A DNA stretch of 64,000 nucleotides from Geobacillus thermocatenulatus (GTDB lineage: Bacteria; Bacillota; Bacilli; Bacillales; Anoxybacillaceae): positions 63,164-127,163 of the forward strand of contig NZ_NEWK01000002.1 of NCBI RefSeq assembly GCF_002217655.1, read 5' to 3'. The notes below the pieces were generated by a model that saw only the letters and a program-made list of their open reading frames with translations, had not been told where the DNA came from and searched no databases. How positions within the stretch are numbered: the first letter of the stretch is position 1; every line of letters starts with the position of its first letter. Shown piece after piece: positions 43,856 through 49,298 of this stretch. A program made the translations under genes and the position numbers.

Positions 43856-43999
43856 CCGGACCCGACGTTTTGCCCATTCCGGCCAGAACGGGATGGGTCA
43901 TTTCTTTTGTCGTTATTTTTCTTAAAAAATAGATGGCTGTTTCCGAAGGATTGTTCTAAACTTATTAGATAGCAAGATGAAATGAAGGAGTTTCGTTAT

Positions 44000-46900
44000 A
44001 TGAAAATAGAAATGATCGCATCGCTTGTGAAAGAAAAACGAATCGTCGACGCCCTCGCCGGGGTGCGGCCATACCTTGAGAAGACCGGCCCGTTTCAGTG
44101 GCGGCCGCTCATGGCGTCCTGGGACGAGATTGAACCGTTTCGGACGCTTGTCCGCCTGTTTGATTACGCGCTCATGTACCGGCATAGCGGATTGGTTGCG
44201 CGGTACGCCCATCGGAAGTTCAACACGCTGCAGACGCTTGCGTGGTTGTGCGACGAATGGCTCGATCAACGCCGGCCGCTCGATGTGGAGGAGGCGCTCA
44301 CTCCGCGCCTGACCGCCGCGCTCGAAGGACGGGTGGAGGAGCCGAGGGAAGCGATCGCCCGGGCGGCGTTTGCGTTGGTGCGCGCTTTATTGGATATGCA
44401 GCGGATCGATGAGGCGCGGGAATGGATGGATGTGGTTGCCCGTTATGAGACGGTGCCGATGCATGACAAGTGGGGCTATTTTTATATCGAAACCGGCGAC
44501 CGGAAGCGAGCGGAACAAGCGATCCGGGCTGGGTTGGACGACCCGGAGCGCGGCGACATGTGCTATTTGCTTCTTGCCGATTTGTGTGCGCTCGATGGCC
44601 GCCACCACGAGGCGCTTGCCGTTCTGGAGGAAGGAGGGCAGCGTTTTCCGCAAGTGATGGCGTTTTACGCTGAGCGCGTGCGCCGCTTGCGCGATGTGCG
44701 CGCCTACCGCGAGGCGCTCGCGGCGATGGATGAACTTGACCGCCTGAATCCGCTTCATATGCATCGCCGTTATTTCGCCCATTTGCGCGCCGAACTGTAT
44801 TACCAGCTTGACGAATGGGAGAAGCTTGAATCGCTTGTGAAAGCGGAGCCGCAGCTTGAAAAAACGCCGTACGCCCGAGCGCTTGGGCGGCAAAGGAAAC
44901 GGTCGGTGGCGCTGCCGCTTGTGCCGGTCGTGCAAAAGCATAACTATTGCGTGCCGGCGAGTTTGGAAATGATGCTTCGATTGCTTGGCTCCCCCCGCAC
45001 GCAGGATGAAGTGGCCGAACATATTTTTGATGTGCGCGGATCGAAATTGTCGACGACGGTTCATTATTTGGAAGAGCTTGGCTTTGTTTGCCGCTTTTTC
45101 GTCGGCTCGCCGCTTCGTTGGAAGCGGCTGATTGATGAGGGCGTTCCGGTGCTGTTAAGCGTCGATTATGAACAGTCATCGCACGTGCAGGTGTTGTTTG
45201 GCTATGACGAGCGGCTTGGGGCGTTGTACGTGCAAGACCCGAATCTATTTGATCCGTTTGTTGTTTCCGAGGACGAGCTTGCCAAATGGTATGCAGGGAC
45301 GCATTATTTGTCGATTGTGGTGCTTCCCCGGGAAAAAGCGGCGCTCGCCGCCGAGCTCCCTAAAGAGGAAGACCGCTATTTCCGCGAATTGCACGCGTTG
45401 GCTGAAAAGATGGACGAGGACGAACAGGCGCATTTCGCCGTGTTTGTCGCCTTTTTGCGCCAGCATGAGCACATCCCGTACACATGGCTGTATGTCATGA
45501 AGCATTTTAGCAGCGATGAGACGAAGCCGCTTGTATTGGAGTATACGGAACGAGTCTTGAACGAGTATCCGGAACATAACGACTTGCTGCTGATGGCGGC
45601 GAAAGCGTACGTCTACACGCAAGAAATGGAGAAGGCCGAAGACGTTCTCAAACGGGTGAAAGGAAAGGCGCAAAGCCCGCTCTACCATTATTTGCGCGGC
45701 CGCATTGCGTTTTTTGCCAGCCGCTACGAAGAGGCGGCCCGCTATTTTCGCACCTCGCTCCAGTTGGACCCAGACCAGCCGGAAGTGTGGAGCTATTTCG
45801 GGCTCGCCTCGGCGTACGCCGGTCATATCGAAAAAGGGCTCATCTCTTCGCGCGTGGCGGTCAGCCTGTATCCGGGCGATTTGTTTATCGAAACGAACCA
45901 CGGTGTGCTGTTGTTCCACGCGAAGCGGTTCGCCGAAGCGCGCGCCTGGTTTGATCGTCTTGTGCGCCGCGAACGGCGGGATGCCCAGCTTTGGTATGAG
46001 CGGGCCCGCTGCGACATGGAGCTTGGCCGCCGGCGCAAGGCGGAACGCGGCTTTTGTGTCGCCAAAGCGCTCGACCCGCAGGAACCGCACCCGTATTTGA
46101 TGTTGGCTGACTTGTATGATGACGACGGCGATCGGGAAAAAGCGAAAGCGGTGCTGGAAGAGGGGCTGGCCGCTGCTAGACGCTTGGCGCCGCTTTACGT
46201 CCGTCTTGGCGATCTCTATATGGAGGAAGGGGAGGCGGAACAAGCGGTTTCGTGCTATAAAGAGGCGGTCCGTCATGACCGCGATGACGTGTTCGCCCAT
46301 CTCGGCTTGGCGTCTGCCCTTGCGGAGCGCGGGGATATGGATGAGGCACGCCGGTATGTGATCGAGCAGCGCGCCCGTTTTGCCGCCAACAGCGAATATT
46401 GGCTGAACGCGGGAAGATGGCTTGTCGCCCATGGGTTCGCCGATGAGGAGGAAGGACGCGAGACGGCGCTGTCGTGGTTGGAAGAAGGGTTGCGTCTGGC
46501 TGAGTTTGAGGCGGAAGAAGCGTACGAGTTTTACCTTGATCAGCTGGCAACGCCGTCTTTAGAGGAACGCGGCCGGGCGTTTTTAGAGCAGCTTGTCTCG
46601 GCTCGCCCGACACTCGCTTCGGCCCATTCCGCTCTCGGCGTCCTTTATGAGCGGCGAGGCCGGCTGTCGAAGGCCATGACGTTTTACCGAGAAGCTGCCG
46701 CCATGGGCCATGCGCTTTCCCTCTTCCGGCTCGCGGAGCTGTGCGCCTCGCTTGGACGCCACGAAGAGGCGAAACAACAGTATGAGGCTTGTCTCAAAGC
46801 CGATCCATCGTTTGTCCTTTGCCATTTTCGCTTAGCTTCACTCTATGAGGCGGAAGGAAACGAAGAGCGGCAGCACGCGCATTTGCTTGAGGCGGTGCGC

Positions 46901-48157
46901 TTGGCCCCGAAGCGCGTCGATATGGAGCAGCTTGCCGCGATCGTGGAGCCTTCCGCGCTTCTCCGCGCGTTGGCTGACGCCCGTCCGCATGCAGGGGAGG
47001 CGTGGTATTACGACAGCCTTGGATATGTTTATGGAGCGCTCGGCCGGCGCGATCAAGAAAAGGCGGCCGTCGAGAAGGCGCTTGCTCTTGACCCGGACCA
47101 TCCTGAAGTGCTCCGCCATTGGGCGATCGTGCTGATCGCGGAAGGACCCCAAAAAGAGGCGGCGAAACTGCTCGAACAGTTGATGGTGCGCCATCCGGAT
47201 GATGAATCGTTGTACCCGTTGTATGTTGCTCTCTTTCCGAAAACGATGCGCGGCTTAGGGAAGCTGCGCCATCGACTCGAGCGGCTAAAGGCAAGCCGCG
47301 AGGCGAAAAGCGTGATGTATCGGAACACCGCCTCGGCTCTTCTCCCGTATTTTGGCGAGGAGCAGGGGGGGCATGACGAACCGGTGCGATGGTGGACAAA
47401 AGCGAAAGAATGGGTCGGCACCGTTGTCTTGTTTTCGATTGTGACCGATTTCTACGACGAAGCGATTCGCCTCAACCGCAGCGATGCGGAAGCCTACAGG
47501 CGGCTCGCCCGCTTATATGCCGCGCTCGAATTGGACAGCGATGCCGTGAAAACGTGGCGCAAAGCGCTCGCCCGCGTTTGGGATCCGTCTTTGGCGCAAG
47601 AATTTGTGGAATATTTATTGGCCGCCGATGAGGAAAGAAAACGCGAGGAAGCGAAGCGCTGGCTGGAGCGGCTGCTGGCTGATGACCCGGATGATGTCGA
47701 CCTGCGCGTGCTGCAGGCGGTCGTTTGGCTTCAAGAAGGACAGCGCGAGAAAGCCGAGCGGCAGCTCGAGGCGATCGTGGCGGAAGAACTGCTCGCCCGT
47801 GAGGCGCTCATGTTGCTTGGCGAACAGTATATGGAAACGGGCCGCTGCCAGGAAGCGGCGGCGCTTTGGGAGCGCTATGCCGATTGGTATCCTGAGAATG
47901 AAGAGTTCCATATGCAGCTTGCGGCTGTTTATGAAGAAGCGGGGCGCATCGATCAAGCGCTCGCGGCCATCGAGCGGTGCGTCCATATGGCCAACGATGC
48001 CCGGCTTCGCTACGAACGAGCCCGCTATCTCGCGCTGCTTGGACGCTTCGATGAGGCGAAAGAAGAGCTTCGGGCGGCGCTGGCGGCCGATGAAAGCGGG
48101 GAGCTGGCCGTCTTGGCAGCCGACGAGCCGGCATTTCACCGCTTGGAGCGGATGTGA
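44000..48157 (+). CDS. Giant TPR protein with embedded C39-like peptidase domain
   Basis: A 1385-residue protein without signal peptide or membrane helix. About 300 residues of helical TPR-like repeats are followed by a papain-like C39 domain. Its triad is visible as Cys317 (HNYCVPASLEMMLRLLG), His395 (SSHVQVLFGYD) and Asp413 (VQDPN), with spacing as in C39 peptidases. About 900 residues of tetratricopeptide repeats follow (for example AARYFRTSLQLDPDQPEVWSYFGLASAYAGH and EKAALEKALALDPDHPEVL). C39 domains normally cut double-glycine leaders inside ABC exporters; here it is soluble and between repeats. ATG 44000 lies behind AAGGAG. It stands alone between the lipase gene and the yidC2 leader. 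The function is unknown. Confidence 0.85.
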   Translation: MKIEMIASLVKEKRIVDALAGVRPYLEKTGPFQWRPLMASWDEIEPFRTLVRLFDYALMYRHSGLVARYAHRKFNTLQTLAWLCDEWLDQRRPLDVEEALTPRLTAALEGRVEEPREAIARAAFALVRALLDMQRIDEAREWMDVVARYETVPMHDKWGYFYIETGDRKRAEQAIRAGLDDPERGDMCYLLLADLCALDGRHHEALAVLEEGGQRFPQVMAFYAERVRRLRDVRAYREALAAMDELDRLNPLHMHRRYFAHLRAELYYQLDEWEKLESLVKAEPQLEKTPYARALGRQRKRSVALPLVPVVQKHNYCVPASLEMMLRLLGSPRTQDEVAEHIFDVRGSKLSTTVHYLEELGFVCRFFVGSPLRWKRLIDEGVPVLLSVDYEQSSHVQVLFGYDERLGALYVQDPNLFDPFVVSEDELAKWYAGTHYLSIVVLPREKAALAAELPKEEDRYFRELHALAEKMDEDEQAHFAVFVAFLRQHEHIPYTWLYVMKHFSSDETKPLVLEYTERVLNEYPEHNDLLLMAAKAYVYTQEMEKAEDVLKRVKGKAQSPLYHYLRGRIAFFASRYEEAARYFRTSLQLDPDQPEVWSYFGLASAYAGHIEKGLISSRVAVSLYPGDLFIETNHGVLLFHAKRFAEARAWFDRLVRRERRDAQLWYERARCDMELGRRRKAERGFCVAKALDPQEPHPYLMLADLYDDDGDREKAKAVLEEGLAAARRLAPLYVRLGDLYMEEGEAEQAVSCYKEAVRHDRDDVFAHLGLASALAERGDMDEARRYVIEQRARFAANSEYWLNAGRWLVAHGFADEEEGRETALSWLEEGLRLAEFEAEEAYEFYLDQLATPSLEERGRAFLEQLVSARPTLASAHSALGVLYERRGRLSKAMTFYREAAAMGHALSLFRLAELCASLGRHEEAKQQYEACLKADPSFVLCHFRLASLYEAEGNEERQHAHLLEAVRLAPKRVDMEQLAAIVEPSALLRALADARPHAGEAWYYDSLGYVYGALGRRDQEKAAVEKALALDPDHPEVLRHWAIVLIAEGPQKEAAKLLEQLMVRHPDDESLYPLYVALFPKTMRGLGKLRHRLERLKASREAKSVMYRNTASALLPYFGEEQGGHDEPVRWWTKAKEWVGTVVLFSIVTDFYDEAIRLNRSDAEAYRRLARLYAALELDSDAVKTWRKALARVWDPSLAQEFVEYLLAADEERKREEAKRWLERLLADDPDDVDLRVLQAVVWLQEGQREKAERQLEAIVAEELLAREALMLLGEQYMETGRCQEAAALWERYADWYPENEEFHMQLAAVYEEAGRIDQALAAIERCVHMANDARLRYERARYLALLGRFDEAKEELRAALAADESGELAVLAADEPAFHRLERM

Positions 48158-48238
48158 TCAATTGTTGCTTTTCTTTCGGTTGAAAGTTTGCTATTGTATG
48201 GAAAGAGAACAATCGACAGGCGAAAGGGAGGTGGACGC

Positions 48239-48508
48239 ATGGAAGCGCCTATTGATTTGCTTGTCTATATGTCGCTTGTCGGCGCGCTATGGATCATCAT
48301 GAAAGGACATACGAGCGCGCGCCGGATGGCAGGTTCGCTGTTTTATGAACCGGCGTTGGCCGCGGTTCGCGAGCATGAAGCAGAGGGAGGCGCCGAACGG
48401 GCGGCGCTTCCATGGCGCCCGCTGTTTTTGCCGCAGCGGCGGAAAATTCCCGTTCGGGAACGGACAAGCCGAACGGATGAGGATGGAAGGCCCTTTCCTT
48501 TATGTTGA
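48239..48508 (+). CDS. MifM-like leader peptide upstream of yidC2
   Basis: An 89-residue protein with one N-terminal membrane helix (IDLLVYMSLVGALWIIM, residues 5-21) and a basic then acidic hydrophilic tail ending RTDEDGRPFPLC. GGGAGGTG precedes ATG 48239. Size, topology and position match B. subtilis MifM, the leader that stalls in the ribosome when YidC1/SpoIIIJ activity is low and so switches on yidC2. Sequence similarity to MifM itself is slight, apart from the acidic cluster near the end (DED versus DEED). The last seven codons form the 5' arm of a hairpin that hides the yidC2 ribosome-binding site. Confidence 0.65.
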   Translation: MEAPIDLLVYMSLVGALWIIMKGHTSARRMAGSLFYEPALAAVREHEAEGGAERAALPWRPLFLPQRRKIPVRERTSRTDEDGRPFPLC

Positions 48509-48543
48509 AACGGCATGATTTTGCAACATGATCAAAGGAGGGC
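48490..48543 (+). promoter_or_regulatory. Hairpin sequestering the yidC2 ribosome-binding site
   Basis: GCCC-tt-TCCTTT-ATGTTG (48490-48507) pairs with CAACAT-gatc-AAAGGA-GGGC (48524-48543). The 3' arm contains the Shine-Dalgarno AAAGGAGG; the 5' arm is the end of the leader reading frame including its stop codon. A ribosome stalled a few codons before the end would hold the hairpin open. Confidence 0.75.
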
Positions 48544-48548
48544 TTTTC

Positions 48549-49298
48549 ATGAAAAAATGGGGATTGGTGCTGCTTGGCGCCGTTTTGCTTCTTGCCGGCT
48601 GCAACCGCAACGAACCGATCGACGAACATAGCCAAGGCATTTGGAACCATTATTTTGTCTACCCGATGTCGAAGCTTCTTTTGACGCTTGGGCACTGGTT
48701 TGGCGACAATTACGGCATCGCCATTATCGTGCTGACGCTCATCGTCCGCTTTTGCTTGCTGCCGCTCATTTTGAAGCAGTTCCGTGCATCGATCGCCATG
48801 CAAAAACTGCGCCCGGAGCTTATGAAGCTGCAAGAAAAATATAAAAGCAAAGACCCGGAAACGCAGCGCAAGCTCCAGCAAGAAATGATGCAGCTGTATC
48901 AAAAGCACGGCGTCAACCCGGCGAGCGGCTGCCTGCCGGTGCTCATTCAAATGCCGATTTTTATGGCGCTGTATTACGCGATTTCGCGGACGCAGGAAAT
49001 TAAAACGCATTCGTTCTTATGGGTCGAACTCGGCCATCGCGATCCGTATTTCATTTTGCCCGTTTTGGCGGCGTTGACGACGTTCATCTCGCTCCGCCTG
49101 TCGCCGTCGATGGCTGAAGAGCAAATGCCGCAAATGGCGATGATGTCGTACATCATGCCGGTGATGATTTTTATCGGCGCCAGCTCCGTTCCGTCGGCGC
49201 TGTCGCTCTATTGGGTCGTCGGCGGCTGCTTCTCGATCATCCAGTCGCTCATTTTGCGTGCTCAAATGAAGGCGGCCAAAGCGGCGGAAAACAGCTGA
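48549..49298 (+). CDS. yidC2: YidC2 membrane protein insertase (YqjG-type)
   Basis: A 249-residue Oxa1/YidC-family insertase with a lipoprotein signal (LLLAGC, Cys at about residue 20) and five transmembrane segments. The hydrophilic groove arginine is present in IVLTLIVRFCLLPLILKQFRAS. The cytoplasmic hairpin (QKLRPELMKLQEKYKSKDPETQRKLQQEMMQLYQKHGVNPASGCLPVLIQMP) is complete. Bacillus has two such proteins, SpoIIIJ (YidC1) and YqjG (YidC2). The leader and hairpin upstream argue for YidC2. AAAGGAGG lies eight bases before ATG 48549. Confidence 0.9.
   Translation: MKKWGLVLLGAVLLLAGCNRNEPIDEHSQGIWNHYFVYPMSKLLLTLGHWFGDNYGIAIIVLTLIVRFCLLPLILKQFRASIAMQKLRPELMKLQEKYKSKDPETQRKLQQEMMQLYQKHGVNPASGCLPVLIQMPIFMALYYAISRTQEIKTHSFLWVELGHRDPYFILPVLAALTTFISLRLSPSMAEEQMPQMAMMSYIMPVMIFIGASSVPSALSLYWVVGGCFSIIQSLILRAQMKAAKAAENS

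Follow-up and report, generated by a model that had tools for sequence, protein, structure and literature searches.

A candidate YidC-monitoring leader peptide upstream of yidC2 in Geobacillus and its relatives

What does a small membrane-spanning leader do when it is encoded directly ahead of a second gene for a YidC insertase? The question is raised by the window analyzed here (the whole stretch of 64,000 nt), in which an 89-codon open reading frame, hereafter the window leader, precedes yidC2 in an arrangement that the original prediction likened to MifM-YidC2 of Bacillus subtilis. As judged from the comparisons of sequence and predicted RNA structure set out below, the leader very probably serves as a substrate through which YidC activity is monitored and, by putative nascent-chain arrest, yidC2 expression is controlled, in the manner of MifM.

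The leader-yidC2 locus and its distribution

The window leader, a proposed YidC-monitoring arrest peptide on the grounds of its sequence and family conservation, occupies positions 48239..48508 of the + strand (89 codons and the stop). Its ATG lies at 48239 and its stop codon at 48506-48508, leaving a gap of 40 nt to the ATG of yidC2 at 48549, and these coordinates confirm the predicted 89-residue leader, with one N-terminal membrane helix, ending 40 nt before yidC2. A strong ribosome-binding site, AAAGGGAGGTGG, precedes the leader (48223..48234, + strand). An in-frame TTG at 48188, which would give a leader of 106 amino acids, was rejected as the start: the MEAP start is conserved genus-wide, and one locus (L019) has no room for such an extension. 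Further upstream lies a possible extended -10 promoter element for the leader-yidC2 unit, TGCTATTGT (48189..48197, + strand); TGnTAT is kept at this position in 16 of 17 aligned family upstream regions (17 of the 39 family loci), and a CTTTTCTTT-like block stands at the expected -35 place. Since a strict promoter-consensus scan does not list the TGCTATTGT element, its promoter role is presumptive. The preceding gene (43982-48157), which ends 81 nt upstream of the leader, encodes a very large TPR protein; of its 1391 residues, 316-421 form a peptidase C39-like domain.

The downstream gene (48549..49298, + strand) encodes a second YidC/Oxa1 insertase, as indicated by matches of its product to Pfam 60KD_IMP (PF02096, E=2.1e-56) and NCBIfam yidC_oxa1_cterm (TIGR03592, E=6.3e-64). 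Its N-terminus is lipoprotein-like, with an LPAM_1 score of 18.5 bits that lies under the Pfam cut-off of 20. A primary gene, yidC1, is present elsewhere in the same genome in an rpmH-rnpA-yidC context, its product being 52% identical to YidC2; a leader directly before a second yidC, in a genome that also carries the primary one, is the arrangement characteristic of MifM.

The leader is widely retained. The leader of Geobacillus zalihae NBRC 101842 matches the window leader with 100% identity. A leader is present in 14 of 14 genomes of the genus, and YidC2 is encoded in 39 of 41 genomes of the family. Loci that had lost the leader and kept yidC2, which the original prediction named as evidence against itself, were looked for, and a leader stands at 39 of 39 family loci with yidC2 (37 recognized by a KIP pattern, L049 and L053 by direct reading). 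The two family genomes without YidC2 differ in kind. One (G022) is a draft in which only yidC1 is among the matches listed; in the other (G007), the match to the window ends about 12 nt into yidC2 and transposase-like ORFs come next. The latter locus (L056, G007:C1:1512000-1515500), in a Geobacillus genome with leader and hairpin intact and no other YidC2 among the matches listed, is an apparent natural loss of yidC2. Separately, one genome with an intact leader-yidC2 pair also holds a second, decayed copy (L058, G020:C25:1-2500), with an in-frame TGA in the leader and a large internal deletion in yidC2, attributable to contamination or to duplication.

Similar leaders occur outside the family. 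When 299 genomes of the order were searched with a profile of 29 family leaders (A1), the best five matches outside the family (E 1.8e-6 to 1.4e-5) all lay directly upstream of a yidC. Inspection upstream of 15 further yidC genes revealed a like leader in five (G294, G150, G177, G233, G121) and none in the remaining 10, each of them a yidC1 with an rpmH or rnpA motif as its neighbor. A wider profile (A2), to which six leaders found by A1 or by inspection were added, matched 71 of 397 genomes at E<=0.05, 17 of them from the family itself; among 20 non-family matches that were fetched, 17 (E<=0.006) lie directly upstream of a yidC. Weak A2 matches in G327, G217 and G108 (E 0.018 to 0.033), none adjoining yidC, were discarded as leaders. 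In total, 27 leaders upstream of yidC were found in six other families, and five of the order's other families show a KxP...DEE pattern. The original prediction had suggested that the arrest sequence may have evolved in a thermophile; nothing shows this, and the pattern recurs in those five families.

Two leaders depart from the rest. Those of L135 and L136 (f43, genus g68 of the Bacillus family) are alike in their N-terminal half, end in a C-terminus without KxP and DEE (FLWMTKQMRRYDSGDDVPS), and have a frame that extends about 37 nt beyond the yidC start point; they possibly carry another arrest sequence and were left out of all motif, hairpin and spacing counts. Motif comparisons accordingly refer to an alignment (A3) of 33 leaders that covers six families, with that of the window counted and g68 omitted. 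Hairpin and distance sets also omit the near-copies L087-L089, L129, L141, L142 and L144, and comprise 58 leaders, 40 from the family and 18 of the 27 others.

A conserved membrane helix and C-terminal block

Two parts of the peptide stand out. Firstly, hydropathy and flanking charge predict a membrane helix at codons 5-21 (48251..48301, + strand), with acidic residues before it and basic residues after it. The best 17-residue hydropathy of the window leader is 2.11, with a net charge of -1 before and +3 after the helix, and hydropathy is at least 1.6 in all 33 A3 leaders, the window included; on hydropathy and flanking charge alone, the helix would take the N-out/C-in orientation that is characteristic of MifM. 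Secondly, a C-terminal block, RRKIPVRERxSRTDEDGR (residues 67-84), is conserved and constitutes the proposed arrest region (RRKIPVRERTSRTDEDGR, codons 67-84, 48437..48490, + strand), as identified by family alignment and pN/pS. E2, Y10, K69, P71, E81 and G83 are invariant among 29 aligned family leaders, and across the 33 leaders of six families K69 and P71 remain invariant while E2 and D80 are nearly so. Additionally, an acidic cluster of the kind used to define MifM (mean charge <-0.3 in five residues, positions 70-100) is found in 33 of 33 A3 leaders, with D/E counted here as -1 and K/R as +1, where the published filter used the idpr package (PMC10987492).

Conservation ends at GR84. The original prediction had placed the arrest sequence, with due caution, in RTDEDGRPFPLC; this placement does not hold, for conservation covers residues 67-84 and stops, the residues past GR84 are variable, and the tail PFPLC serves as a hairpin arm, that is, as RNA. 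Consistent with this division, pN/pS among nine genus leaders is 0.38 over codons 1-84, with 0.24 for codons 1-25, 0.56 for codons 26-58 and 0.24 for codons 59-84, values which indicate that the helix and the putative arrest region are under peptide-level selection and that the middle is loosely constrained.

Conservation of a helix and a C-terminal block beside yidC2 might also be expected of a small membrane protein with a job of its own, such as a partner of YidC2, that merely precedes the gene. Such a protein is very improbable here: the middle third is loose, the tail and stop are free, and the co-varying hairpin over the yidC2 SD, described below, would need a separate explanation. Moreover, Pfam and NCBIfam hold no model matching more than one of the 33 leaders, the sole match of the window leader falling far under cut-off. 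A PDB search with the leader profile gave 0 matches.

Constraint on the motif extends to its codons. The Gly83-Arg84 pair (GGA-AGG; 48485-48490 of the window, + strand, and family loci L017-L056) stands out in codon counts from 39 distinct family leaders: Gly83 is encoded by GGA in 38 of 38 cases and Arg84 by AGG in 35 of 35, the other three leaders having Ser. AGG is rare elsewhere: it makes up 8 of the 298 Arg codons that precede this point in those leaders, and 4 of the 190 counted in four genes of the window. The GGA-AGG bases form part of the outer stem of the hairpin in Geobacillus and are unpaired in the fold of several other family lineages. Such invariance points to a constraint on the codons or on the RNA at the site where arrest is proposed, for which a slow codon there, or the SD-like character of GGAAGG, are possible reasons.

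A predicted hairpin at the Shine-Dalgarno sequence of yidC2

The Shine-Dalgarno sequence (SD) of yidC2, AAAGGAGGG (48534..48542, + strand), lies in the 3' arm (48524..48550, + strand, from the fold) of a predicted hairpin whose 5' arm (48483..48507, + strand, from the fold and an arm-swap test) falls within the last codons of the leader. The minimum-energy fold (-25.2 kcal/mol) pairs 48483-48493 with 48540-48550, 48496-48499 with 48536-48539, and 48500-48507 with 48524-48531; the three stacked stems claimed by the original prediction between the last leader codons and the yidC2 ribosome-binding site are thus recovered, slightly longer than described. Pairing involves seven of the nine SD bases and extends to the first two nucleotides of the yidC2 ATG. 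Taken alone, the window fold is moderately unusual, with z scores of -2.3 and -2.6 and 5 of 200 shuffles equally stable in each test.

Comparison among relatives is more telling. Over 53 distinct leader regions, mean pairing of the SD core is 0.91, versus 0.67 when the 5' side is shuffled with dinucleotides kept; it reaches at least 0.8 in 40 regions and falls below 0.8 in 13. In 28 of the 53, no more than 5% of shuffles match native SD pairing, a level that the other 25 fail. Eleven yidC1 SD regions, with rpmH or rnpA motifs upstream, served as a negative control and gave a mean of 0.36, with none at 0.8 or above and none at the 5% level (the closest, L093, reaching 0.76 with 6% of shuffles), and 10 Bacillus mifM loci, the positive control, gave a mean of 0.98, six of them reaching the 5% level. 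Loss of the hairpin where yidC2 is kept was also looked for: SD pairing is weaker at some family loci, namely L030 (0.60), L038 (0.64) and L053 (0.74).

The arms differ between lineages: Geobacillus has GGCCC/GGGC where a sister genus has CTCCTTGTTTG/CAAACAAGGAG. The original prediction had proposed covariation across Geobacillus genomes as a check. The register of the hairpin shifts by one base between lineages (in an alignment of 29 of the 38 distinct family regions), and for this reason an arm-swap test and an anchored count were used in place of formal pair counting. Among 39 non-redundant regions, native arms pair at -19.3 kcal/mol and swapped arms at -12.7 kcal/mol, a mean cost of 6.6, and 0 of 20000 permutations reach the native value, kinship among genomes not being removed. 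With the same proviso, the counts are 0/20000 for the own family (n=23), 109/20000 for the own genus (n=7) and 0/20000 for the others (n=16). The native 5' arm is the best partner in just 8 of the 39 regions and among the top three in 23. In the anchored count, 80 of 114 inner pairs are standard against a shuffled mean of 69.3, a value reached once in 20000 (23 sequences, 19 distinct inner stems, kinship again not removed); pairs 3-6 are standard in just 9-11 of 19. Together these data indicate that an SD-covering hairpin is conserved and that its arms co-vary, the strong evidence being comparative and not that of a single sequence.

A TTTT run follows the stem in the window, as it might if the hairpin were a transcription terminator within an attenuator; alternatively, a hairpin over an SD could melt with heat, as an RNA thermometer. 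Together these two readings are very improbable, and the least likely of those considered. The terminator reading was rejected because the T-run is not kept across the family, other lineages having GGAGGATC or GGAGGTCTCTTATG in its place, and a terminator scan gives no site at the hairpin. For attenuator and thermometer alike, no Rfam family reaches gathering score around the locus, and the hairpin overlaps a leader that is conserved in amino acids.

Plain translational coupling, by which ribosomes passing or terminating in the hairpin would open it with neither arrest nor sensing of YidC, deserves closer attention, since the hairpin itself is well supported and most family members end their leader 18-45 nt ahead of the point where yidC2 starts, within the hairpin or close to it. 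Distances within the locus speak otherwise. Across the 58 leaders the acidic motif stands 46-63 nt from GGAGG (sd 5.1, the search for GGAGG being confined to distances of 38-80 nt), whereas its distance to the stop codon ranges from 15 to 153 nt (sd 29.2). The stop is in fact the loosest element: in L039 it comes right after GR, yet the hairpin arm continues beyond the ORF, and in three family leaders (L034, L041 and L055) the frame continues for about 74-107 nt beyond the point where yidC2 starts, L055 being the longest at about 107 nt. Because the motif-SD distance is tight and the stop position loose, arrest at the motif fits better than termination. Peptide-level constraint on the helix and C-terminal block, and a helix-to-motif spacing held at 52-62 residues in 33 leaders, also argue against coupling, which is accordingly regarded as improbable.

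Arrest at the motif was further considered with a crude model of the ribosome footprint. A modelled stall at the motif brings pairing of the window SD core down from 0.98 to 0.24. Over all 9 nt of the SD, pairing starts at 0.82 and drops to 0.48-0.50 when codons 84-86 occupy the P site, but to just 0.63-0.65 when codons 82-83 do. Taken over the 53 regions, mean pairing drops no further than 0.51, with just 14 at or below 0.3, and L049, L050, L053, L092 and L137 stay above 0.9, the value rising in L049, L050 and L053.

Relation to MifM and proposed mechanism

The design attributed to the locus by the original prediction is present in its several elements: a second yidC downstream, a predicted N-out helix, a C-terminal acidic motif, a like spacer, and an SD hairpin that starts at the motif. 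MifM (YqzJ), upstream of yidC2 (yqjG) in B. subtilis, shares the downstream second yidC, the N-terminal helix and the C-terminal acidic cluster. Its helix-to-motif spacer measures 55 residues by the method that gives 62 for the window leader and a median of 59 (range 52-62) for the 33 leaders; the published MifM spacer has a median of 54 (PMC10987492). The 5' arm of the SD hairpin starts at the motif and lies under the modelled stalled ribosome, as in MifM, the model being incomplete in many relatives; 10 Bacillus mifM loci have an SD hairpin with a motif-to-GGAGG distance of 49-52 nt, compared with 61 nt in the window.

The residues responsible for arrest differ. MifM requires R69, I70, W73, I74, M80 and N81 together with its DEED cluster, stalls from D89 to S92, and has its species specificity modulated by Met90 of uL22, according to PMC4423224. 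Neither the window leader nor the consensus of 33 relatives contains RIxxWIxxxxxMN; in its stead the window leader has a basic KxPxRE block, with DEDG or DEEG where MifM has DEED. The uL22 loop, by contrast, is shared with MifM-bearing genomes: residues 80-94, Met90 included, are identical to those of two genomes whose MifM is 95-97% identical.

That the primary sequence is barely like MifM, as originally stated, holds for B. subtilis MifM and also after profile searches. The A1 profile scores 0.6 bits against MifM in HMMER, and hhalign gives it no match in register. A wider profile scores 7.6 bits and ranks 14 of 1995 against its own shuffles, and the widest gives an hhalign match in which RRKI..DEDG is aligned in register to IRKV..DEED (prob 18%, P=0.0013), a marginal result. 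The profile search did not retrieve mifM in any of 10 genomes that carry it; the same search did retrieve the yidC leader of two genomes from another genus of the Bacillus family, at about 5e-4 and over the N-terminal half only. Homology to MifM is not demonstrable from these comparisons. Because the RIxxWIxxxxxMN residues are absent and such homology is not demonstrable, the leader is classed as a variant: it is best read as a peptide that would work like MifM with different arrest residues, distinct from MifM itself.

Known YidC monitors have arrest sequences that are unrelated to one another (PMC13183943). CliM (uC_KYxIW), the Clostridia yidC2 leader, resembles the window leader in having one helix and lying upstream of a yidC; its arrest is relieved by YidC insertion, and mRNA structure lowers yidC2 expression (PMC13183943). 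Its K-Y-x-I-W near the C-terminus is absent from the translated window leader, and the accessible text of PMC13183943 mentions no acidic cluster for it. ApcA, the actinobacterial yidC2 leader, has one or two helices and also lies upstream of yidC2 (PMC7897499), and differs in its R-A-P-G residues (PMC10987492); inspection of the window translation reveals no C-terminal residues like R-A-P-G or R-A-P-P (ApcA/RAPP-like).

The published MifM cluster comprises 572 Firmicutes leaders, for which the charge filter applied above was used (PMC10987492). Since 33 of 33 leaders pass this filter, the 572-sequence set may already hold them; the word Geobacillus is absent from the main text of that paper, and literature searches combining MifM or yidC2 with Geobacillus, other genus names or MifM homologs found nothing on this leader among the papers listed.

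The following mechanism is proposed. In free mRNA, the hairpin would close over the yidC2 SD, as folding and the co-varying arms suggest. During translation of the leader the N-terminal helix would emerge and be inserted N-out/C-in by YidC. Where insertion is fast, the pull on the chain would take the ribosome through the motif, the ribosome would leave, and yidC2 would stay closed. Where YidC1 is short, the ribosome would halt at or just past DEDGR, at about codons 82-86, with RRKIPVRER at or below the tunnel constriction, as residue counts against the MifM structure imply. The halted ribosome would then cover the 5' arm, as the modelled footprint indicates, and free the SD such that yidC2 could be translated.

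A broader, speculative and on balance doubtful extension is that the widespread YidC monitor of the order forms a separate arrest class, defined by [RK]-K-x-P-x-[RK]-E and DEE[GD] and having tunnel contacts of its own, that the textbook RI-WI-MN motif known from B. subtilis MifM is a local, derived version, and that arrest in the Geobacillus family is aided at the codon level by the invariant rare AGG (35 of 35 Arg) that directly follows the acidic cluster.

Counting that of the window, six families have the motif, and in them a common function, gene neighborhood and RNA geometry would be combined with different tunnel-facing residues. They may constitute a natural series in which to ask which nascent-chain residues arrest the ribosome, how arrest sequences turn over, and what role a rare codon plays, and the heat-stable Geobacillus ribosome could prove convenient for structures of stalled complexes.
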